Assembly (NCBI GenBank): GCA_020445605.1
Contig: JAGRGH010000040.1
Span: 1-64,000, forward strand
Source of the DNA: Chromatiales bacterium
GTDB lineage: Bacteria > Pseudomonadota > Gammaproteobacteria > JAGRGH01
Direction of reading: 5' to 3'
Length of the DNA: 64,000 nt
The stretch's first letter is position 1; every line of letters starts with the position of its first letter. The notes under the pieces were generated by a model. That model searched no databases and was not told the origin of the DNA. It saw only the letters and a list, made by a program, of their open reading frames with translations. Position numbers and translations under genes: made by a program. Shown here in pieces: positions 13,537 to 24,203 of this stretch.

Positions 13537-13538
13537 CT
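13275..13538. mobile_element. MITE-like element with long terminal inverted repeats
   Basis: The outer 30 bases (13278-13307 and 13506-13535) are inverted repeats with 27 matches; they start GTCCTGTCCC on both strands, and the similarity extends three more bases outward with one mismatch. Inside are two hairpin arms. The first pairs 13312-13326 with 13383-13397 (14 of 15). The second pairs 13417-13432 with 13484-13499 (16 of 16, CCTACGGTTCGAGGGC). There is no reading frame inside. No clear target duplication was seen. Its right end supplies the stop codon of the GNAT gene at 13537. Confidence 0.7.
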
Positions 13539-13824
13539 AGTCGGCCAGAAGGTCGCCGTATTCGCGGTTGCGCCGCATGAACGCCGCAATGTAGGAACAC
13601 TGCGGCACGACGCGCAGGGACTGCGTGCGTGCCCAGTCCAACGCGGTGCGCGCGAGTTCGGCCGCAACCCCCTGCCCGCGATGTTCCGGCGGAACCAGGG
13701 TGTGAAATATCGTCACGGTATTGCCGGCGATGCGATATTCCAGCATCGCCGTCGCGCCAGCGAGTTCCGCCTGAAAGCGGTTCGCGGCCGGATTGTGCGT
13801 GATTCGCAGCGTGTCGTCAGTCAT
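13537..13824 (-). CDS. Small GNAT-type N-acetyltransferase (YjdJ/COG2388-like)
   Basis: About 95 residues from ATG 13824 (MTDDTLRITHN); ATG 13830 is equally possible. The acetyl-CoA-binding motif is visible in TLVPPEHRGQGVAAELARTAL, and the protein ends near FMRRNREYGDLL, as in the short family that often contains a conserved late Cys (here in VPQCSYIAAFM). The gene overlaps the end of the RND gene by 8 bases and so belongs to that operon. Its stop codon is formed by the tip of the MITE-like element, but length and C-terminus look normal. Confidence 0.8.
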   Translation of the reverse strand: MTDDTLRITHNPAANRFQAELAGATAMLEYRIAGNTVTIFHTLVPPEHRGQGVAAELARTALDWARTQSLRVVPQCSYIAAFMRRNREYGDLLAD

Positions 13825-16189
13825 GTTCATTCGGTTCGCCAGCAATCGGCTTTGGATCGCCGATCAACCAGCGCGCCAGCGTTGGCAGCAGCACGAGTGC
13901 GCCAATCATGTTCAACAGGAACATGAAGGTCAGCAGAATGCCCATGTCGGCCTGGAACTTCAGCGGCGAGAATATCCAGGTCGCCACGCCCACGGCGAGC
14001 GTTAGGCCGGTGAACAGCACGCCAATACCCGTCATGCGCAGCGTCTTGTCGAACGCATCCTCAAGTGGCTCGGATCTTTCCAGGCGGCTCTGTAGACGAC
14101 TGAAGATATAGATGCCGTAATCGACGCCGATCCCCACGCCCAGCGCCACGACCGGCAGGGTCGAAACCTTGAGCCCGATCTCCAGGAAGGTCATCAGCGC
14201 ATACGCCAGCACCGAGACCAGGGCAAGCGGCAACACGATGCACAGCGTGGCGCGAAGCGATCGGAACGTAAGCAGACAGAGCACGATGATGGCGGCGTAG
14301 ACATACACCAGGATGGGGAACTGCGCGGCATCGACCGCCTCGTTCGTGGCGGCCATGACGCCGACGTTGCTGCCGGCGAGCGCGTAGGTCACCCCATCGT
14401 CCGTATGCGCTTCACGGTAGCGCTTCACGGACTCCACGATGCGCTCGATGGTTTCGGCCTTGTGATCGTCGGTGAAGATCAGCACCGGCATGACCGAGCA
14501 GTCGCTGTTCAGCAGGCCGCTCGAGGTATCGATCGGCGAGACGGCCTGCGCAAGCACGGTCTGATCGCGCGGCAGCACACGCCAGGTCATGGCACCCTCG
14601 TTCCAGCCGGCGTTGATCAGTTTCGCGAGCATGCCGAGCGTCAGCACGGACTGCACGCCTGGAATGTTCTCGACGTGCCAGGTGAACTCGTCGATGGCCG
14701 CCATGCGCGCGTGGTCGATGCAGGCCTGCGGTTCGGTCTCGGCGAACACCGTGAGCACGTCCACGCCGATCGAAAAACGCCGGGAAATCACGTCGGTATC
14801 GATGTTGTAGCGCGAATCCTGACGCAGCTCGGGCACGCCACGATGCAGATCGCCGATCTTGATGTCCGCCGCCTTCCAGGCGCCGAGCACGAACAGCACG
14901 ATGCCGATCGCAACCGTGATCGACGCCGGGCGCGGCCGGGTGATTTTCGCAAGGCCATGCCACATGCCGCGCCTGGCCTCGGCGATCGCATGCAGCTGCC
15001 GCCGGTACTCGTGTGAGTACGGCACGAAACTCAGCAGCACCGGCAACAGCACGAGATTGGTCAGGATGATGGCCGCGACACCGAGCGAGGCGGTGATCGC
15101 CATCTCCTGGATGATCTCGATCTTGATCAGCAGGATGGTGATGAAGCCGATGGTATCGCTCGCGAGTGCGATCCCGCCTGGAACGAGCAGCCGGCGGAAG
15201 CTCAGGCGCGCGGCCTGCATCGAGTCGGCGCCGTCGAACACCTCCGCACGCACGGCGCCGACCATCTGGACTCCGTGCGAGACGGCGATCGCGAACACCA
15301 GAAACGGCACGAGTATGGACATCGGATCGATGCCGAAGCCGACCAGGGTCAGGCTGCCGAGCTGCCAGACGACGGCAATCAACGAACAGACCAGGGGGAT
15401 CAGGGTCAGTGCAGGCGAGCGCGTAAACCAGTAAACGAAAACCGCGGTGATCACGAACGCGATGCCGAAAAACACCACCACCCGCGCTGCGCCTTCGGTG
15501 ATGTCTCCGACAACCTTCGCAAACCCGATGATGTGCACGTCGATTGCGGCCTGCACCGAGATGCCGCGGTCGCTGGTGATAAAACGCTCGCGGATCTTCT
15601 TTTCGAGTTCGCCGGCGACCTGCTGATAGTCGATACGCTTGCCCGTGGCTGGATCGATCTCCAGCAGGTTCGCGACGATCATCGCGCCAGTGAAATCGTT
15701 CGCGACCAAACGGCCCACATAGGCGGATTTCAGGAGGTTCTCCCGGACGCGGGCGAGCCCCTCGGGCGTTGGCTGAAAATCCGCGGGCACGACGTTGCCG
15801 CCGGAGATGCCGTCCTCGACGACTTCGGTGAACCGGGTGTTTGGCGTGAACAGGGACTGCACGCGTGCGCGGTCGACGCCCTCGATGAAGAACACCTCGT
15901 CGGTCGCGCCCTTCAGGGTTTCAAAGAATTGCGGGGTGAAGATGTCACCGCGATCGACGGTCAACGCGATCAGGATGCGGTTCGCGCCGCCGAAGGAGTC
16001 GCGATACTTGACGAAGGTCTGCATGTACTCATGCTGCAACGGCAGGAGCTTGGCAAACCCGGCATCGACCCGCAGCTTGAGTGCGGCCGCCCCGAAGGCC
16101 AGTGTCGCCAGCGCGAATGCCAGCAGCACCAGACCGCGGTGGTCGAACACCGCCCGCTCGATGGCACGTACGACTCCGCCCCTAGCCAC
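13817..16189 (-). CDS. RND/MMPL-type inner-membrane exporter
   Basis: 790 residues with the duplicated RND layout: TM1 near 17-37, a large periplasmic loop, a bundle of five or six TM segments (about 215-395, including GIDPMSILVPFLVFAIAVSHG), TM7 near 425-445, a second loop and a final bundle (about 640-780). It resembles the MMPL/HpnN and sterol-sensing-type RND proteins that move lipids or hydrophobic molecules, rather than the AcrB drug pumps of about 1,040 residues. The gene overlaps the YCF48-like gene upstream by 8 bases. Grouping with DUF1302 and DUF1329 suggests export of a hydrophobic compound across the envelope. Confidence 0.9.
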   Translation of the reverse strand: MARGGVVRAIERAVFDHRGLVLLAFALATLAFGAAALKLRVDAGFAKLLPLQHEYMQTFVKYRDSFGGANRILIALTVDRGDIFTPQFFETLKGATDEVFFIEGVDRARVQSLFTPNTRFTEVVEDGISGGNVVPADFQPTPEGLARVRENLLKSAYVGRLVANDFTGAMIVANLLEIDPATGKRIDYQQVAGELEKKIRERFITSDRGISVQAAIDVHIIGFAKVVGDITEGAARVVVFFGIAFVITAVFVYWFTRSPALTLIPLVCSLIAVVWQLGSLTLVGFGIDPMSILVPFLVFAIAVSHGVQMVGAVRAEVFDGADSMQAARLSFRRLLVPGGIALASDTIGFITILLIKIEIIQEMAITASLGVAAIILTNLVLLPVLLSFVPYSHEYRRQLHAIAEARRGMWHGLAKITRPRPASITVAIGIVLFVLGAWKAADIKIGDLHRGVPELRQDSRYNIDTDVISRRFSIGVDVLTVFAETEPQACIDHARMAAIDEFTWHVENIPGVQSVLTLGMLAKLINAGWNEGAMTWRVLPRDQTVLAQAVSPIDTSSGLLNSDCSVMPVLIFTDDHKAETIERIVESVKRYREAHTDDGVTYALAGSNVGVMAATNEAVDAAQFPILVYVYAAIIVLCLLTFRSLRATLCIVLPLALVSVLAYALMTFLEIGLKVSTLPVVALGVGIGVDYGIYIFSRLQSRLERSEPLEDAFDKTLRMTGIGVLFTGLTLAVGVATWIFSPLKFQADMGILLTFMFLLNMIGALVLLPTLARWLIGDPKPIAGEPNEHD

Positions 16190-17177
16190 CGCCGGTGCCT
16201 GGCTGAGTTGACGTCAGATTGACCCGGCGCACGCCTGCCTCACCGACCGACACGAGGCTGCCATCGCCCATGCGTAGAAGCCTTTGCAGGCCCTTGCGGT
16301 CGGGTTGGGGAAGTGCCGCGATGCGCTGCCCGGCAACGGACCATTCGAGCAGGGTTCCACTGAGGCCCGCGATCAGCACGCGATCTTCGTCCAGCGCGAC
16401 GGCCGCAGTGAGCATCGCCGTGGTCCCGGTGTCGAGAGCCTCCCAGGTTTCCCCGTCGTCAACCGATCGAAACAGGTGGCCGCGCAGTCCCAGCAGCGCA
16501 ATGTCGCCATCGGCGGTCGCAATGGCGCTGAAATACGAGCCCTCATACGGCGTTTCGAGATTGCGCCAGGTTTCGCCGGCATCGTCGGAGCGATAGGCCG
16601 TGCCGGCCTCCGCGGCGATCAGGAGCCCACCGTTTGGCAGCCGCACAATCGCATTGAGGTGAAAGTCTTCGTCGGGATTCACTGCGTGCTGAGCCCAGGT
16701 CTGTCCCGAATCCATCGAGCGCAGGTACAGGCCGTAGGCGCCGATCGCATGCACGACGCCATCGGCCGCAAGGACATCGAGCAGAGGCTGCCGTGCATCG
16801 GGCTCGCAACGCGCGAGGGTCCACGACCGACCGGCGTCGTGACTGCGCACGATGACACCATCGTGGCCGGCCGCGATCCATACATCGGCGCCGATCGATG
16901 TGACGGCGGTCAGCGTCGCACGCGCAGGCGGCACGACCTGTTGCCATTCGTGCCCGCCGTCGTCGCTGCGCAGGATATGCCCACGCTCGCCGACGACGAT
17001 CGCGAGCGCGTCGTCGACGGCGCCGTCGAGCAATAACGATTGTGCCGCGAGCGGTGCGATGCTGGCGCTGTGGCCGGCGCAGGGCTGGTCCGCGGCGCGC
17101 GCCACGGAGCCCAGCGCAACCGCCAGCCCGCAGAGCGATGCGAGGCCGCAGATCAGTTGTCGAGTGACCATCTGCAA
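16182..17177 (-). CDS. YCF48/BNR-repeat beta-propeller protein, periplasmic
   Basis: 331 residues. A signal peptide (MQMVTRQLICGLASLCGLAVALGSVARA) is followed by repeated blades of the form S-x-D-x-G-x-T-W (for example RSDDGGHEW, RSHDAGRSW, RSMDSGQTW, RSDDAGETW, RSVDDGETW). This is the YCF48/photosystem II stability factor-like fold. In non-photosynthetic bacteria such proteins occur beside RND transporters with DUF1302 and DUF1329 partners; their role is unproven, perhaps a periplasmic adaptor. It overlaps the RND gene by 8 bases. A hairpin lies in the 68-base gap before it. Confidence 0.88.
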   Translation of the reverse strand: MQMVTRQLICGLASLCGLAVALGSVARAADQPCAGHSASIAPLAAQSLLLDGAVDDALAIVVGERGHILRSDDGGHEWQQVVPPARATLTAVTSIGADVWIAAGHDGVIVRSHDAGRSWTLARCEPDARQPLLDVLAADGVVHAIGAYGLYLRSMDSGQTWAQHAVNPDEDFHLNAIVRLPNGGLLIAAEAGTAYRSDDAGETWRNLETPYEGSYFSAIATADGDIALLGLRGHLFRSVDDGETWEALDTGTTAMLTAAVALDEDRVLIAGLSGTLLEWSVAGQRIAALPQPDRKGLQRLLRMGDGSLVSVGEAGVRRVNLTSTQPGTGGG

Positions 17178-17182
17178 CCGAA

Positions 17183-17205
17183 AAGGCCCGCGGATGGCGG
17201 GCCTT
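17183..17205 (-). terminator. Intra-operon hairpin (attenuator or partial terminator)
   Basis: AAGGCCCGC and GCGGGCCTT form a 9-bp stem in the 68 bases between the DUF1329 gene and the YCF48-like gene. Read in the minus direction it is followed by TTTTCGG. It could lower expression of the RND half relative to the DUF1302-DUF1329 half. Confidence 0.55.
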
Positions 17206-17245
17206 GGGAATCCCTGATCATCGCGTCATCCGTTGGCCGTTCGGA

Positions 17246-18601
17246 TCAGCGCCGCCCTTCTCTGCGCAAGGCGTCGGCGGTGTAGTCGTCGGGCGTGCGC
17301 TGCACCTCGAAGTCGTACATCGAGCTTTCATTATCAAGCCCGATCGCGAGGTAGCGCCCGGCTTGCAGGTCCGTGTGAACCTCCAGCGTGGTCCAGAACA
17401 CGGGCTTCTCGTAGTAGTTGATCGGGTGTCCCTCGGACACGCGCCAGATCTGGTCGCGGTTGTCGTACTGATCGACGTGCAGAATCTGCCAGGAGTCCTC
17501 GTCGACATAGAACGTGCGGCGTTTGTACACGTGCCGCGTGCCGTCCTTCAGACGCGCCTCGACGACCCAGACCCTGTGCAGTTCGTAGCGCAGGTGCTCG
17601 GGGTTCACATGCAGCGGCGTGAGGATGTCGGAGTACTTCAGCTTGTCGCTGTGCAGCGCATAGGAGTTGTACGGCACGATCATTTCGCGCTTGCCGACCA
17701 GTTCCCAGTCGTAGCGTTCGGGGCTGCCGTTGAACATGTCGAACTGATCGGACGTGCGCATGCCGTCCGACGCGGTACCCGGATTGTCGAACGCGACGTT
17801 CGGCGCGCGGCGCACGCGGCGCTGGCCCGGGTTGTAGATCCAGGCGCGACGGTGTTCCTTGGCCTGATCGAGGGTCTCGTGCACGAGCAGGATCTGCCCG
17901 GCCAGGCGCGCCGGCGCGGTCACTTCCTGCTTGAAATACAGGATCGTGTTGTCCAGCGACGCCTCGGTGGAGCCGTCGATGGAGTAGATCACGTAGAACT
18001 CGTCCTTGAAATCGACCAGCGTGTAGTCACCGCCGCGCGTCGGCGTGGCCTGGGAGATCACCCGCGAGGCGATCTCGCCGCGATAGCGCAGGATGTGATT
18101 CCAGATCACCTCCAGACCGGTCTTCGGGATCGGAAACGGTATGCCGATGACCGCGCCGGTCACGCCGTTGCCGCCGTCGGTCACCCTGGCCGTGCTTGCC
18201 ACCGTCCGCGTCGCATCGTAGATGCGTTGCGGAGCCGACGCGCTGCGCTGCGTCGGGTACAGGTTCATGTAGAAGCTCGGATAGGTCTCCAGCATCGCCT
18301 TCTGGCCCGCGGTGAGCCGCTCGGCGTACTGCGCCATGTTGTCCTTCGTGATCTTGGCGATGACGGCATCAGCGGCGAACGGGTCCGGATGGTGCATGCC
18401 TTTCGTGTAACCGGCCGGCGGCGCCGTGATGCCACCGGTCCACGCCGGGATGGTGCCGGCCGCATTGCCGGCCTTCTCGCCGCCCAGCGGCGTGAGGTCC
18501 GCACCCAGACGCGCGACCTCCTGGGCGCTGATCTCGGCGCGTGACAGCGGGCTCAGCAGACAGATCGCAAGGGCGGCGGCAAGTTTGCTCATTGTTTTCA
18601 C
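17246..18601 (-). CDS. DUF1329 family protein (LolB-like fold, periplasmic)
   Basis: About 451 residues from GTG 18601, chosen because GGAGG stands 9 bases upstream; ATG 18592 would fit its spacing poorly. A signal peptide (SKLAAALAICLLSPLSRA) leads to a mature DUF1329 region (ISAQEVARLGADLTPLGGE, IPAWTGGI, then WVVEARLKDGTRHVYKRR and EDSWQILHVDQYDNRDQIW). Family structures resemble outer-membrane lipoprotein carriers, so lipid binding is plausible. The gene sits 17 bases after the DUF1302 gene, the usual pairing. The ligand is not known. Confidence 0.9.
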   Translation of the reverse strand: MKTMSKLAAALAICLLSPLSRAEISAQEVARLGADLTPLGGEKAGNAAGTIPAWTGGITAPPAGYTKGMHHPDPFAADAVIAKITKDNMAQYAERLTAGQKAMLETYPSFYMNLYPTQRSASAPQRIYDATRTVASTARVTDGGNGVTGAVIGIPFPIPKTGLEVIWNHILRYRGEIASRVISQATPTRGGDYTLVDFKDEFYVIYSIDGSTEASLDNTILYFKQEVTAPARLAGQILLVHETLDQAKEHRRAWIYNPGQRRVRRAPNVAFDNPGTASDGMRTSDQFDMFNGSPERYDWELVGKREMIVPYNSYALHSDKLKYSDILTPLHVNPEHLRYELHRVWVVEARLKDGTRHVYKRRTFYVDEDSWQILHVDQYDNRDQIWRVSEGHPINYYEKPVFWTTLEVHTDLQAGRYLAIGLDNESSMYDFEVQRTPDDYTADALRREGRR

Positions 18602-18618
18602 GTTTGCTTCCCTCCGCC

Positions 18619-20427
18619 TCAGAACGAGTACTTGACGGTCGCCGCGATGAAATCGCGATCGTTGACCAGGTTCAGCCGCCCGGCACCGAAGAAATTCGTG
18701 TAGGAGATGTCGGCCTCCCACGCTTCCAGATAGGTCGCCTGCAAGCCGAGCGTGATGGCCTTGCGGTCTTCCAGGAACGGCCCGCCTGGCCCGGGTGAGT
18801 TGCCCTTAACATCATGCGCCCAGGCCACGCGCGGCAACAGGTTCACGCCGCTGAACACGTTGTTGAGGGTCATGCGGTAAAGCAGGCGGTAACCCCAGGA
18901 ATCGCCATCGGCGAAATTCCCGGTCTTCTCGGTCGCCGGTTGCAGTCCGCCGAGCGTCGCGAGCGGATTGCCGCTGGTGTAGGTGCCGGCGACCTCGAGC
19001 CGCAGGTCATCCTTCTTCGGCATGGAATGCACATGGTTCCAGGCGACCTCGGCGAGCAGGATCGACTGATCCGCACCCAGTGCGGGTCCGAATGCCTTCG
19101 TCGCCGTCACCTGCAATTGCGATACGTCGCGCCGGATAAAACCGGGCACCTCTGAATTGAAGCCATAGGCCCCGAGCTGGCTGGGCACACCCAGCGGTGA
19201 CAGGGCGGCAAACAAAAGCTCCACATCGTCGACCTGCAACGGCACGTCTTTTTTGTGTGAAAGCTCGCCCTGCAACGCAACGCCGGTGGTGCCGAGCTGG
19301 GTGTTGAACGACAGCCCGTAGAGCTTGATGTCCTTCGGATACTCGAGGAAATACCCGGCGCTGCCGGCGTAATCCCCGGCCAGGGCGCCGGCCGGCAGGC
19401 CGGTGCGCGGATCCACGATCGGCGCGAGCGAGCCGGTCCGGCCGCTGATGATCGGCAGCCGACTGTGATAGCGGATGTGGTAGAGGCCGAATTCGGTCTC
19501 GTTTAGCTGCGGGACGAACAGCCGAACGGCGACGCCGTACTGGCCGTTGTTTCCCGGGGTGCGACCCGGATCGCGCGGCACCACCGAACCTGCTGGTGAA
19601 CTGCCGGCCAGCGCCGCGCCGGCGGGCCCGGCCGGCAGCATGTCGGAGACTGAACCGAAGCCGAGCATCGCGCGGGTGCCGCCGACGCCGGCAAAGTCGT
19701 TGGTGGAGAAATACGTGCCGGGCGGATCGACCTCGATTCGATCCCAGTCGTAGAGCAGGAAGCCCTCGACGGAGATGTCTTCGGTCAGTCCGACCGAGCC
19801 CCAGAACATGCCCTCCGGCAGCAGCGCCTCGCGCAGTTCCGCGCCGGGTGCACGCAGCGCCGAGAGGTCGACCGGGTTGATGACGTTGATGCCGCCGGGG
19901 ATGAACGTGCTCTCGCCCCAGCTGACGACCTGTTCACCGGCGCGCAGCGCGACCGGGTGATTCGCGACGTCGAAATTCGCCGAGAGGTAGGCGTCGAGCA
20001 GCACCGCATCGGAGCCCACGACGTCGAGCGCTTCGCTGGTCAGGTCGGTCCGGTCGCGATCGGAGTCCTCCTGTTCGAAATCGTAGAACGCCTTGCCGCG
20101 CACGAACGCGCCGAAGTTGCGCCAGCGCAGATCCAGTTCCGAGGTGATCTTGGCGATGTTGCTGACAACGCCGCGATCGTAGTTGAGGTTGCCGTCGTCG
20201 CCGTTGACCGAGTACGCGTTGCCGCCGTTGGCGATGCCGACGATGTCGTCGTCGCGCCCGCTCACGCGCCACGCGACACCCCAGGACAGCGTCGTGTCGA
20301 GCCGGGCTTCAAGTTCGCCGGTGGAGAGATCCAGCGCCGGGGCCTCGCCCGGGGCAAGCGCCAGTGCCAGCAGCGCACCCAGGCCGGTCAGCCGTGGGTA
20401 ATGAGTCTTTGGTGTGTCTACACGCAT
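18619..20427 (-). CDS. DUF1302 family outer-membrane protein
   Basis: 602 residues from ATG 20427, with GGGGAG 9 bases upstream. A signal peptide ends near PGEAPALDL. The body is a beta-barrel-like protein rich in alternating strands, ending in Phe (ATVKYSF), the usual outer-membrane insertion signal. Family motifs include AGEQVVSWGESTFIPGGINV and VGLTEDISVEGFLLYDWD. DUF1302 proteins pair with DUF1329 proteins in hydrocarbon- and steroid-degrading bacteria. It is the first gene of the operon and is divergent from the acylase gene. Confidence 0.9.
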   Translation of the reverse strand: MRVDTPKTHYPRLTGLGALLALALAPGEAPALDLSTGELEARLDTTLSWGVAWRVSGRDDDIVGIANGGNAYSVNGDDGNLNYDRGVVSNIAKITSELDLRWRNFGAFVRGKAFYDFEQEDSDRDRTDLTSEALDVVGSDAVLLDAYLSANFDVANHPVALRAGEQVVSWGESTFIPGGINVINPVDLSALRAPGAELREALLPEGMFWGSVGLTEDISVEGFLLYDWDRIEVDPPGTYFSTNDFAGVGGTRAMLGFGSVSDMLPAGPAGAALAGSSPAGSVVPRDPGRTPGNNGQYGVAVRLFVPQLNETEFGLYHIRYHSRLPIISGRTGSLAPIVDPRTGLPAGALAGDYAGSAGYFLEYPKDIKLYGLSFNTQLGTTGVALQGELSHKKDVPLQVDDVELLFAALSPLGVPSQLGAYGFNSEVPGFIRRDVSQLQVTATKAFGPALGADQSILLAEVAWNHVHSMPKKDDLRLEVAGTYTSGNPLATLGGLQPATEKTGNFADGDSWGYRLLYRMTLNNVFSGVNLLPRVAWAHDVKGNSPGPGGPFLEDRKAITLGLQATYLEAWEADISYTNFFGAGRLNLVNDRDFIAATVKYSF

Positions 20428-20811: not shown

Positions 20812-23718
20812 ATGAAGCGAATTCGCCAGATCGTACGCGCAGGGTTGGGTGCACTGTCACTGTCGTTGACACTGGCCTCGGCCGGCGTCCACGCCGCCGC
20901 CCTGGTGCTTCCCGGACTGAACGGACCGGCCAGTCTCGACACCGATGCCGCGGGCCAGCCCGTCATCACCGCCACCAATGACGCGGACGCCTGCTTCGTG
21001 CTCGGCTGGTCCCATGCATCGAACCGCTTGTATCAAATGGACGTGCTGCGCCGCGCAGCCAGCGGCACCCTTGCCGAACTGCTTGGCAGTGCCGTCCTTG
21101 AACAGGACGTGCAATTGCGCACCCTGGGGCTGCGGCGTGCGGCGGAACGATCCGAAACCGTACTTTCGGCCACCGACCTCGCGTGCCTGCAGGCCTACGC
21201 CGCTGCGATCAATACGCTGATCGCCGTGGCGCCGCAGCTTCCACCGGAATACGGCGCGCTGGAACTCACGAAGGCGGGCATTCCGGCATGGACACCAACC
21301 GACACCCTGGCGATCGTCAAGCTGCTGACGTTTCAGCTCGGCGTAAGCTTGGTTGATATCGATCGCACGATTGCATTGCTGACATTGCAGGGGGTAGGCG
21401 CAGCAACCGGCTTTGATGGTGCCGCAGCGTTCTTTGAGGAACTCTGGCGCGCCGCTCCGTTCGAGTCTGCCCCGACGATCCCCGATTACTTCGATGACAT
21501 GGGCAAGGCCCCCACCCCGCTCGCGGCGGCCGCAATTGAGCAGGGAAAACTGCTCGCGCAGCTGAAGCAGTTTCGGTCGCAGGTGGACTCCAACCCGCTG
21601 TTGCAGGCGGCACTCAGGCCGACCTCGAGTTCGATGGGCAGCAACATGATGTTGGTCGCTGGCGCGCTGACGGAATCCGGCTATCCGATGTTCGCGAACG
21701 ACCCGCACCAACCGCTGGAAAATCCGTCGCTGTTCTTTCCGATTGCGAGTCTGGACGTGACGGATGCACAAACGCCGTACTGGGTTTCAGGCGTCAGCTT
21801 CCCGGGCGTACCAGGGTTCGGCCAAGGCTGCACCGCAAGCTACTGCTGGGGCTCGACCGTCAATCGCGTGGACCAGACCGACGTCTTTCAGCTGAAACTG
21901 CAGATCGATCCGCAGGCTGGCGTTCCGGTCGCGTACTTTGTCGAGAACATGCCGCGCCCGCTGCAGCTGATTCCGCAGACCTACAAGGTCAACCTGATCA
22001 AAAATACCGTGTTCGACGACGTGGTCGACTCCGGAATCACCCCACAGGATCCCGGGGGCCTGACCCTGATCGCGCCGGATTTCGGACCCATCGTCAACGT
22101 CGATTTCAGCGACCCGACCAATGTCACCGCGCTGGCGGTGGCCAGTGTCATCCAGTTCGCTACGCAGGAGTTCCACTTTTTCCGCCAGCTGCCGTTCGTG
22201 AATTCACCGCAGAACTTTCGCGCCGCGCTGGAGTACTTCGACGTGGGTTCACAGAACTGGGGCTACGCGGACAACGCCGGCAACATCGCCTATTTCACGA
22301 TGGCGGAGATTCCACTTCGCACGGACCTGCAGATGGACAAGGTCGCCGGCCTTGGCCCGGGTTTCATCCGCAACGGCAATGACCCGATGACCCACTGGGC
22401 TGCGCTGGCCAACCCGCAGCCCAACCAGGCAACGCCGTTCGAGATCCTGCCCTACGATGAGTTGCCGAACGAGATCAATCCGACACGCGGTTACATCATC
22501 AACGCCAACAGCGACCCGGTCGGAACGACTGCGGACAACAACCCCCTGAACCAGTGGCGGGCCGGTGGCGGAATCTATTATCTCAACGAAGGCAGCACCT
22601 ATTACGGCGGATATCGCCAGGTGCGCATGGCCACGCGGATCGCCGAGGTTGTGGAGAACGATCAGCGGAAGTTCACGCTCGATGACATGATCTCGATCCA
22701 GGGCGAGACCAAACTGCACGACGCCTCGGTGTTCGTGCCGTACATCGTCCAGGCCCTGGTGAACGCCCAGCGTCCGGAAGCCGAGCTGCCCTTGAAGGCA
22801 CTGCTGCTCGTGCCGAATCTCGTCGCGGCCGTACAGCGGCTCGCGGCGTGGGATTTCTCGACGCCGACCGGAACGGATGACGGATTTGATTTCGGCGACA
22901 ACCCGGCGCAACCCGGCCCGCCGTCGGACGCGGAGATCGCCAACAGCGTCGCCGCTACGCTTTATAGCGGTTGGCGCGACTTCATCGTTCGCGGCACGTT
23001 TGACCTGCTGTTCGGCACCCTGGAGACCTTCACGAAGGTAGACGGGCTCGCGGACGACGTCCTGCCGGAACCGGAATCGCGCATACGAGCCCTGCGCCAC
23101 GTGCTCGAGAATTTCGATGCCTTCAAGGGCGGCAGCGCCAGCAAGCTGTTCTATTTCTTCGGCACGCCCGGCATCAACAGTGTCGCCGATGCGCGCGACT
23201 TCGTGATCCTGCTTGCGATGAAGAACGCGCTCGATCAGTTTGCGAGCCCGGCATTCGACGGCGCGTTCGGTCAGTCGAAAAACCTCGATGACTACCGCTG
23301 GGGCATGCTGCACCGCATCGTGTTCAAGCACACGCTGGGGGATTTCGAGCCATTGCTGAACGTCCCGCCCGGCGCAAACACGGTCGATGCGTTGCAGGGT
23401 TTTGCCGTCGACGGCGGAACGCTCAGCATTGATCTCGCAACGAGCGATCGGCTGCGTGCCGACACGCCCGCGGACTACCAGTTCAATATGGGGCCAGCAC
23501 GGCGTTTCGTTGCGCACCTGGTACCGCCGGAAATGGGTCCGATCCAGGCCCAACAGATCACGCCCCTCGGCGCCAGCGGTATCCCGAATCCGGCCGATCC
23601 GTTCTATGCGAACCAGACGCCGCTATGGCTGACCAACCGGTTTCTGCCGCTGCCGACCGGGAAACCCGATCCGGCCGGTCTGATTGCGGGCGACGAGTTC
23701 CTGCCGCTTGTTCCTTAA
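20812..23718 (+). CDS. Penicillin acylase family protein (Ntn hydrolase)
   Basis: 968 residues, larger than typical penicillin G or AHL acylases (about 750-850). A signal peptide (IVRAGLGALSLSLTLASAGVHAA) directs it to the periplasm. The autoprocessing site is MGSNMMLVAG, making Ser277 the likely N-terminal nucleophile of the beta subunit. FANDPHQPLENPS follows, like the ANDPHL signature of the family, and a late NSDP motif (INANSDPVGTT) is kept. GSNMM replaces the usual GSNNW. Substrates of relatives include penicillins and acyl-homoserine lactones; this one cannot be assigned. It is divergent from the envelope transport operon. Confidence 0.88.
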   Translation: MKRIRQIVRAGLGALSLSLTLASAGVHAAALVLPGLNGPASLDTDAAGQPVITATNDADACFVLGWSHASNRLYQMDVLRRAASGTLAELLGSAVLEQDVQLRTLGLRRAAERSETVLSATDLACLQAYAAAINTLIAVAPQLPPEYGALELTKAGIPAWTPTDTLAIVKLLTFQLGVSLVDIDRTIALLTLQGVGAATGFDGAAAFFEELWRAAPFESAPTIPDYFDDMGKAPTPLAAAAIEQGKLLAQLKQFRSQVDSNPLLQAALRPTSSSMGSNMMLVAGALTESGYPMFANDPHQPLENPSLFFPIASLDVTDAQTPYWVSGVSFPGVPGFGQGCTASYCWGSTVNRVDQTDVFQLKLQIDPQAGVPVAYFVENMPRPLQLIPQTYKVNLIKNTVFDDVVDSGITPQDPGGLTLIAPDFGPIVNVDFSDPTNVTALAVASVIQFATQEFHFFRQLPFVNSPQNFRAALEYFDVGSQNWGYADNAGNIAYFTMAEIPLRTDLQMDKVAGLGPGFIRNGNDPMTHWAALANPQPNQATPFEILPYDELPNEINPTRGYIINANSDPVGTTADNNPLNQWRAGGGIYYLNEGSTYYGGYRQVRMATRIAEVVENDQRKFTLDDMISIQGETKLHDASVFVPYIVQALVNAQRPEAELPLKALLLVPNLVAAVQRLAAWDFSTPTGTDDGFDFGDNPAQPGPPSDAEIANSVAATLYSGWRDFIVRGTFDLLFGTLETFTKVDGLADDVLPEPESRIRALRHVLENFDAFKGGSASKLFYFFGTPGINSVADARDFVILLAMKNALDQFASPAFDGAFGQSKNLDDYRWGMLHRIVFKHTLGDFEPLLNVPPGANTVDALQGFAVDGGTLSIDLATSDRLRADTPADYQFNMGPARRFVAHLVPPEMGPIQAQQITPLGASGIPNPADPFYANQTPLWLTNRFLPLPTGKPDPAGLIAGDEFLPLVP

Positions 23719-23879: not shown

Positions 23880-24203
23880 ATGAACCGGACGGACGAACGC
23901 TTCGAGAACTTCGAAGCGTTCTATCCGTTTTATCTCTCACAGCATGCCGACCTGCGTTGCCGGCGCATGCATTTCGCCGGCCTTGTGTTCGCGTTCGCGG
24001 CGCTGCTGATGGCGGCACTCACGCAAAACGCCTGGTGGCTGCTGGCCGGCCTGGTGGCCGGCTACGGATTTGCATGGATCGGCCATGCCGCGTTCGAACA
24101 CAACCGGCCGGCGACGTTTTCGCATCCCTGGTACAGCCTGCGCGGGGACTTGCGAATGTTTCGCGAGATGCTGACTGGCCGGATTGGTCTGACAAAGCGC
24201 TGA
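23880..24203 (+). CDS. DUF962/Mpo1-like membrane protein
   Basis: 107 residues. The family signatures are present: YLSQHADLRCRRMHFAG near the start and GHAAFEHNRPATFSHPWYS in the second half, with two hydrophobic segments between (about 30-65). Mpo1 of yeast is an Fe(II)-dependent dioxygenase acting in alpha-oxidation of 2-hydroxy fatty acids, and the conserved His residues match its metal ligands. The role in bacteria is less clear. It lies just after the acylase gene and repeat B, and before a degenerate repeat. Confidence 0.85.
   Translation: MNRTDERFENFEAFYPFYLSQHADLRCRRMHFAGLVFAFAALLMAALTQNAWWLLAGLVAGYGFAWIGHAAFEHNRPATFSHPWYSLRGDLRMFREMLTGRIGLTKR

Follow-up and report, generated by a model that had tools for sequence, protein, structure and literature searches.

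A run of five genes in the window (here the whole stretch of 64,000 nucleotides from the Chromatiales contig JAGRGH010000040.1, assembly GCA_020445605.1) raises the question of what molecule is moved across the cell envelope by the proteins that it encodes, and in which direction. An earlier note, made from the letters of the DNA, had treated the arrangement as a trans-envelope export system. The arrangement as such was already in print: AmeABCD of Castellaniella defragrans 65Phen was described in 2018 as a four-gene cassette, its composition and order were reported to be conserved, and its authors regarded it as a likely new subfamily within HAE3 (PMC6394551). The operon of the window is an AmeABCD-type cassette, and since this design has been published, evidence on the cargo is what the present analysis adds.

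The operon and its surroundings

Table 1. Genes of the operon (A to D and the GNAT gene) and the divergent acylase gene, in window coordinates
Feature	Coordinates	Strand	Family match
A, DUF1302 protein (AmeA-type), 602 aa, signal peptide	18619..20427	minus	PF06980, 588.6 bits
B, DUF1329 protein (AmeB-type), signal peptide	17246..18592	minus	PF07044, 526.9 bits; PF17131 LolA_like
C, YCF48-like beta-propeller (AmeC-type), periplasmic, signal peptide	16182..17177	minus	PF14870 PSII_BNR/YCF48, 3.6e-15
D, HAE3/MMPL-type RND transporter (AmeD-type), 790 aa	13817..16189	minus	PF03176 MMPL, 2.3e-27
Small GNAT, overlaps the end of D	13537..13845	minus	PF14542
Penicillin-amidase family acylase, divergent, signal peptide	20812..23718	plus	PF01804, 408 bits

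The five genes were described in the earlier note as a tight series, and Pfam searches recover every family named there, all on the minus strand (Table 1). B starts at ATG 18592 (or at GTG 18601), 17-26 nt past the stop codon of A, and C starts about 70 nt past B; the overlap is 8 nt for C with D and 14-29 nt for D with the GNAT gene. These short gaps, with the C/D and D/GNAT overlaps, make the spacing operon-like, and the GNAT gene is probably co-transcribed with D here. A search of the region between A and the acylase gene for regulatory motifs gave one imperfect inverted repeat, and promoter-like sites at chance level. The hallmarks of an HAE1 tripartite pump, a membrane-fusion protein and a TolC-type outer-membrane factor, do not occur among the Pfam matches of the operon proteins. 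Reading of the flanking ORFs places genes for malic enzyme, malate dehydrogenase and citrate synthase around the cassette, in addition to the acylase gene; downstream of the latter lies a gene (23880-24203) of the Mpo1-like, 2-hydroxy-palmitic acid dioxygenase family.

The source genome, 3.36 Mb in 63 contigs, contains a single full-length DUF1329 gene. It also has a second, reduced set elsewhere (L112:4942-9873; G000:C31, stretch from 38000), made up of a TetR-like regulator, an MMPL/RND protein of 798 aa, a LolA_like (PF17131) protein of 264 aa and a signal-peptide protein of 397 aa that looks barrel-like and has no Pfam match. This set lacks a YCF48 gene and presents the barrel-carrier-pump design in three parts; pairs of short LolA_like and DUF1302-like proteins are common to many genomes of the class.

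Predicted structures of the four proteins

One part for each layer of the envelope was the central idea of the earlier note, and it is supported by the models, profiles and hydropathy of the four proteins. The AF2 model of A (pLDDT 87) has about 18 long strands, and its best Foldseek matches in the PDB are porins of the OmpF, OprD/Occ, AlgE and chitoporin types; on this model A is predicted to be a porin-like outer-membrane beta-barrel. A FadL-like fold was considered and set aside, as no FadL occurs among the top 50 PDB matches, and by Pfam A belongs to PF06980, not to the FadL family (PF03349, Toluene_X barrel). For B, the model (pLDDT 88) matches LolA3 (9tp6, 2.9e-16), the DUF1329 protein 4z48, 3bk5, 3buu and LolA/LolB, and B is accordingly modelled as a periplasmic carrier of the LolA/LolB fold; a sequence search of the PDB found no convincing DUF1329 relative, and the likeness was found by fold alone. 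The profile of C matches Ycf48 (5ojr) at 3.1e-32. Signal-like N-termini, taken with the models of A and B and the profile match of C, support the predicted placing of A in the outer membrane and of B and C in the periplasm.

D has 12 hydrophobic segments (from hydropathy, with windows merged) and two periplasmic loops, at residues of about 42-228 and 447-617. Its best NCBIfam model is that for HAE3 (TIGR00921), with 155.7 bits, under the model cut-off of 351.9. Its PDB relatives by sequence are remote and include MmpL5 (6e-14), HpnN (2e-6), NPC1-related proteins (2e-5), MmpL4 and MmpL3. Assignment as an HpnN hopanoid transporter was rejected (77.3 bits, NCBIfam cut-off 751.85), as was assignment as a BstA sterol transporter (37.7 bits, cut-off 1400). 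In TM4, the motif Ser-His-x-x-Gln (S304-H305-Q308 of D) is present in 97/97 alignment rows, and in TM10 Asp-Tyr (D690-Y691) is present in 96/96 readable rows; judged from this alignment, the two motifs are a possible family-specific signature of the proton relay. MmpL3 has Asp-Tyr at both the TM4 and the TM10 places, and by comparison the lineage of D would have an asymmetric relay site. In the RND paralogue that belongs to the reduced set of the source genome, Asp stands at either site, unlike in D with its TM4 His.

Conservation as one unit

The four genes travel together. Among the 80 nearest DUF1329 relatives in GTDB genomes (64-75% identity to B), 71 have A-B-C-D in this order and on one strand, and most of the other nine end at a contig edge. 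These loci come from Desulfuromonadia and other Desulfobacterota, Acidobacteriota, Opitutaceae and other Verrucomicrobiota, gamma- and alphaproteobacteria, Entotheonella and Binatia; across these groups D retains 54-65% identity. Of 274 genomes sampled evenly from the class of the window, 42 match the D profile and 45 have full-length DUF1329: both are present in 42 genomes, DUF1329 only in 3, RND only in 0 and neither in 229 (Fisher, 2e-46). The co-occurrence of the four families on which the earlier note had staked its reading is thus strongly upheld, in order (71/80) and in the presence of DUF1329 in all 42 genomes with the RND protein. Within the class, then, the distribution of the cassette is patchy (42/274). 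A few genomes have multiple copies, and copy numbers are lower bounds since some genome searches scored only the top few candidates per genome; correction for kinship in the genome statistics extends no further than taking one genome per family.

Departures from the common layout include a changed order, B-A-D-C, at two loci (L123 and L124), and a division in genome G161 between A-B (L144) and C-D (L145), as in Pseudomonas putida (see below). Fusions joining any of the four parts, sought as evidence of interaction, were not found. The identity of 64-75% in DUF1329 between the source genome and Acidobacteriota, Desulfuromonadia and Opitutaceae (loci L032-L111) suggests, from these cross-phylum sequence comparisons, that the whole cassette may have undergone wide horizontal transfer.

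The GNAT and acylase genes had been put forward as possible modifiers of the cargo. Across 119 related loci, a set drawn from outside the genus and family of the source genome, no homologue of either was found; the two are therefore best regarded as local neighbours and not as conserved parts, and the idea that they modify the cargo gains no support.

Lipases, beta-oxidation genes and FadL

The neighbours of the cassette in relatives (called with a simple ORF and composition script) support the suggestion in the earlier note of a hydrophobic molecule or lipid as cargo. Lipase or beta-oxidation genes are neighbours at 15/80 named loci. At nine loci from Desulfuromonadales and gammaproteobacteria, a gene for a VolA-type lipase (Lipase_bact_N) lies upstream of A on the same strand, mostly adjacent to it, and the lipobox is present in most cassette-linked lipases. 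Genes of beta-oxidation (the long-chain acyl-CoA synthetase FadD, FadB, FadA, FadE and ECH) flank the cassette at six named loci and at others, from Desulfuromonadia, Acidobacteriota and gammaproteobacteria. At the Opitutaceae loci the flanking genes look like housekeeping genes.

Several further neighbours were observed. A cytochrome P450 gene follows the cassette in Entotheonella (L088:14995-16182) and a glycerol-3-phosphate acyltransferase gene precedes it in one genome of the Steroidobacteraceae (L083:5206-7698), either of which would fit a lipid or hydrophobic substrate. A Ser/Thr protein kinase gene precedes A at seven gammaproteobacterial loci, the kinase having a cyclic-nucleotide-binding domain at the two that were checked (L057 and L097); it is a possible regulator of the cassette.

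As a control for this neighbourhood signal, the 274 class genomes were screened for PF12262 (Lipase_bact_N, VolA-type) and for PF03349 (FadL). The lipase occurs in 36, of which 22 are without the cassette and the other 14 contain A-B or the families of the cassette. FadL adjoins the lipase in 13 of the 22 cassette-less genomes, typically 150-250 bases off, and in 12 of the 14 others A lies within 10 kb of the lipase on the same strand, usually adjacent. No lipase in the 36 genomes adjoins both, a FadL profile search found no FadL beside the cassette-linked lipases, and the difference in FadL adjacency between lipase genomes with and without the cassette is significant (Fisher, 2.5e-4). In the lipase tree, in which the duplicate contigs L043/L146 and L053/L140 were each counted once, the partner must have switched at least 3 times along branches with good support, and the cassette-linked lipases form two separate groups amid those linked to FadL. 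At three loci (L186, L187 and L188, of G024, G037 and G228), in genomes with many DUF1302/DUF1329 copies, a VolA-type lipase gene lies directly beside a DUF1302 gene; the DUF1302 barrel may thus have lipase partners even where the full cassette is not involved.

Canonical FadL (E<1e-70) is found in 6/42 cassette genomes and in 91/232 others (p=0.0015), and it is also rarer in cassette genomes when one genome per family is taken (p=0.009); the depletion is gone, at one genome per family, if any weak PF03349 match is admitted, such matches being counted without positions (p=0.47). In a wider set from several phyla, considered without a matched baseline, 35 of 48 named cassette genomes have no FadL-family match. 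The source genome itself has no match to PF03349 or to the PF12262 lipase. It has a fadE-fadD-fadB-fadA operon (L165:3819-11861) and ten AMP-binding matches, and no lipase or beta-oxidation gene adjoins the operon of the window.

Proposed function and its alternatives

Taken together, these data argue that the operon is a lipid transport cassette of the AmeABCD type, most likely enabling a cell without FadL to assimilate long-chain fatty acids or comparable hydrophobic substrates for growth, a reading to which we give about an even chance. The cassette would constitute a proton-driven route for fatty acids and other hydrophobic substrates that occupies the slot held elsewhere by FadL; we infer its inward direction, and we infer the cargo of the window's own cassette from the cargoes suggested for its relatives. 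In such a route, A would let in a hydrophobic molecule from the cell surface; in relatives, this molecule would often have been released by the adjoining VolA-type lipase. B would shield the lipid in its cavity and ferry it across the periplasm, and C could dock on D as an adaptor that presents B or shapes the periplasmic domain of D. D would then drive the lipid, at the expense of the proton gradient, into the inner membrane, where FadD-type synthetases might trap it. Direction is the least certain step of this mechanism.

Assimilation is favoured by the FadL slot, by the lipases and beta-oxidation genes, and by the poor growth of mutants on hydrophobic substrates, among them those of P. putida on Tween 20 and of Delftia on phenanthrene (see below). 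With limonene as the only carbon source the ameABCD mutant grows poorly, whereas at 3 mM limonene with added acetate its growth is normal (PMC6394551), and this rescue by acetate is compatible with a defect of supply as well as with a defect of detoxification. The reading is weakened by the description of solved RND lipid transporters of the MmpL and HpnN types as exporters, by the lack of lipase or beta-oxidation neighbours at the window's own operon and of a PF12262 lipase in its genome, by the 6/42 cassette genomes that keep canonical FadL and the loss of family-level depletion when weak matches count, by the housekeeping-like flanks in Opitutaceae, and by a model of A that is not FadL-like.

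It is further weakened by the case that the authors of AmeABCD made for efflux, in which D would expel toxic hydrophobic compounds (terpenes, solvents or surplus fatty acids) and A, B and C would carry them outward. Deletion of ameABCD increases sensitivity to high limonene and leaves slightly more Nile Red in the cells after CCCP (PMC6394551), and the RND relatives MmpL3/4/5 are named exporters. In real time, however, mutant and wild type hardly differed in their efflux of Nile Red (PMC6394551), and the association of the cassette with lipases and beta-oxidation operons, in the slot of FadL, suits use of a substrate better than tolerance of it. Efflux is on balance rather unlikely, and export, the direction assumed by the earlier note, is not supported by neighbourhoods that point more to assimilation.

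A role in trafficking or homeostasis of the outer membrane, by which phospholipids or other envelope lipids would be moved between membranes and the growth phenotypes would be indirect, would suit a LolA/LolB-type carrier and a pump related to MmpL, HpnN and NPC1, all of kinds that handle lipids or lipoproteins, as well as the cassettes of Opitutaceae that lack catabolic neighbours. We consider it improbable, as the patchy spread of the cassette and its recurring lipase and beta-oxidation neighbours speak instead for a conditional, nutritional role. Yet another view is that the proteins mature or display an esterase or lipase and do not transport its products, as an earlier, hydrolase-related suspicion about PP_0765/PP_0766 of P. 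putida would have it. The lipase immediately adjoins the cassette in many relatives, and P. putida cannot grow on Tween 20 without PP_0765/PP_0766 and PP_2018/PP_2019, for which transport was proposed (PMC10866462). Nevertheless, 22 genomes have a lipase of this family and no cassette, with FadL adjoining the lipase in 13, and many cassettes, the window's included, are in genomes without a PF12262 lipase, which makes a maturation role highly improbable.

A bolder form of the assimilation reading, that the cassette is a second, energised system of Gram-negative bacteria for uptake of long-chain fatty acids that replaces FadL, the porin-type barrel and the LolA-fold carrier handing lipids to an RND protein that works inward, is put forward tentatively, as a possibility somewhat short of even. 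If true, there would be an RND system dedicated to import, and lipid feeding by FadL-less bacteria with full beta-oxidation would be explained. As late as 2022, no protein other than FadL was said to be known to take up long-chain fatty acids in Gram-negatives (PMC9496633), and a widespread cassette that stands in its place beside the same lipases is a testable candidate for a second route. A shared function is thereby offered for the DUF1302, DUF1329 and periplasmic YCF48 families, and the direction of transport by AmeABCD itself is reopened, since supply would account for the published growth data as well as efflux does.

Comparison with known systems

The sterol and lipid transporters NPC2-NPC1, MmpL3, HpnN and BstA offer one comparison, as their transporters share the RND fold with D, although the sequence similarity of D to NPC1, MmpL and HpnN is remote. 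NPC1 takes sterol from the soluble carrier NPC2, and the handover from B to D may, by analogy, follow a similar logic. We know of no YCF48 or DUF1302 partner for any of these systems, nor of an RND partner dedicated to FadL.

FadL differs from the cassette in being a single protein, and it comes from a family other than that of A, which lies outside PF03349 and models as porin-like. The likeness lies in the lipase: in Vibrio cholerae the VolA lipase (vca0863) has the FadL homologue vca0862 as its numerical neighbour and frees fatty acids for uptake (PMC9496633), and homologous lipases pair with the cassette in the relatives considered here.

Parts of the cassette have been described elsewhere. 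Nanopods of Delftia contain DUF1302 and DUF1329 proteins (PMC3110197); deletion of the Delftia DUF1329 gene impaired growth on phenanthrene, according to work cited in PMC13101534, and a DUF1329-YCF48-MMPL cluster was highly expressed in a benzene-degrading consortium (PMC13101534). In P. putida all four parts are present, in two loci (PP_0765/PP_0766 and PP_2018/PP_2019), whereas they form a single contiguous operon here; co-folding of the P. putida proteins predicted a strong contact for PP_2018 with PP_2019 and weak ones for PP_0766 with PP_2019 and with PP_0765 (PMC10866462).

The closest counterpart is AmeABCD, which was compared by family, order and length. It shares all four families and their order with the cassette of the window (DUF1302, DUF1329/LolA superfamily, COG4447/YCF48 and HAE3 RND), with lengths of 605/451/316/787 aa for A/B/C/D (PMC6394551) against 602/about 448/331/790 aa here. 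The two differ in setting: AmeABCD sits in a monoterpene island and was interpreted as an efflux system (PMC6394551), whereas the cassette of the window lies beside genes of central metabolism and an acylase.
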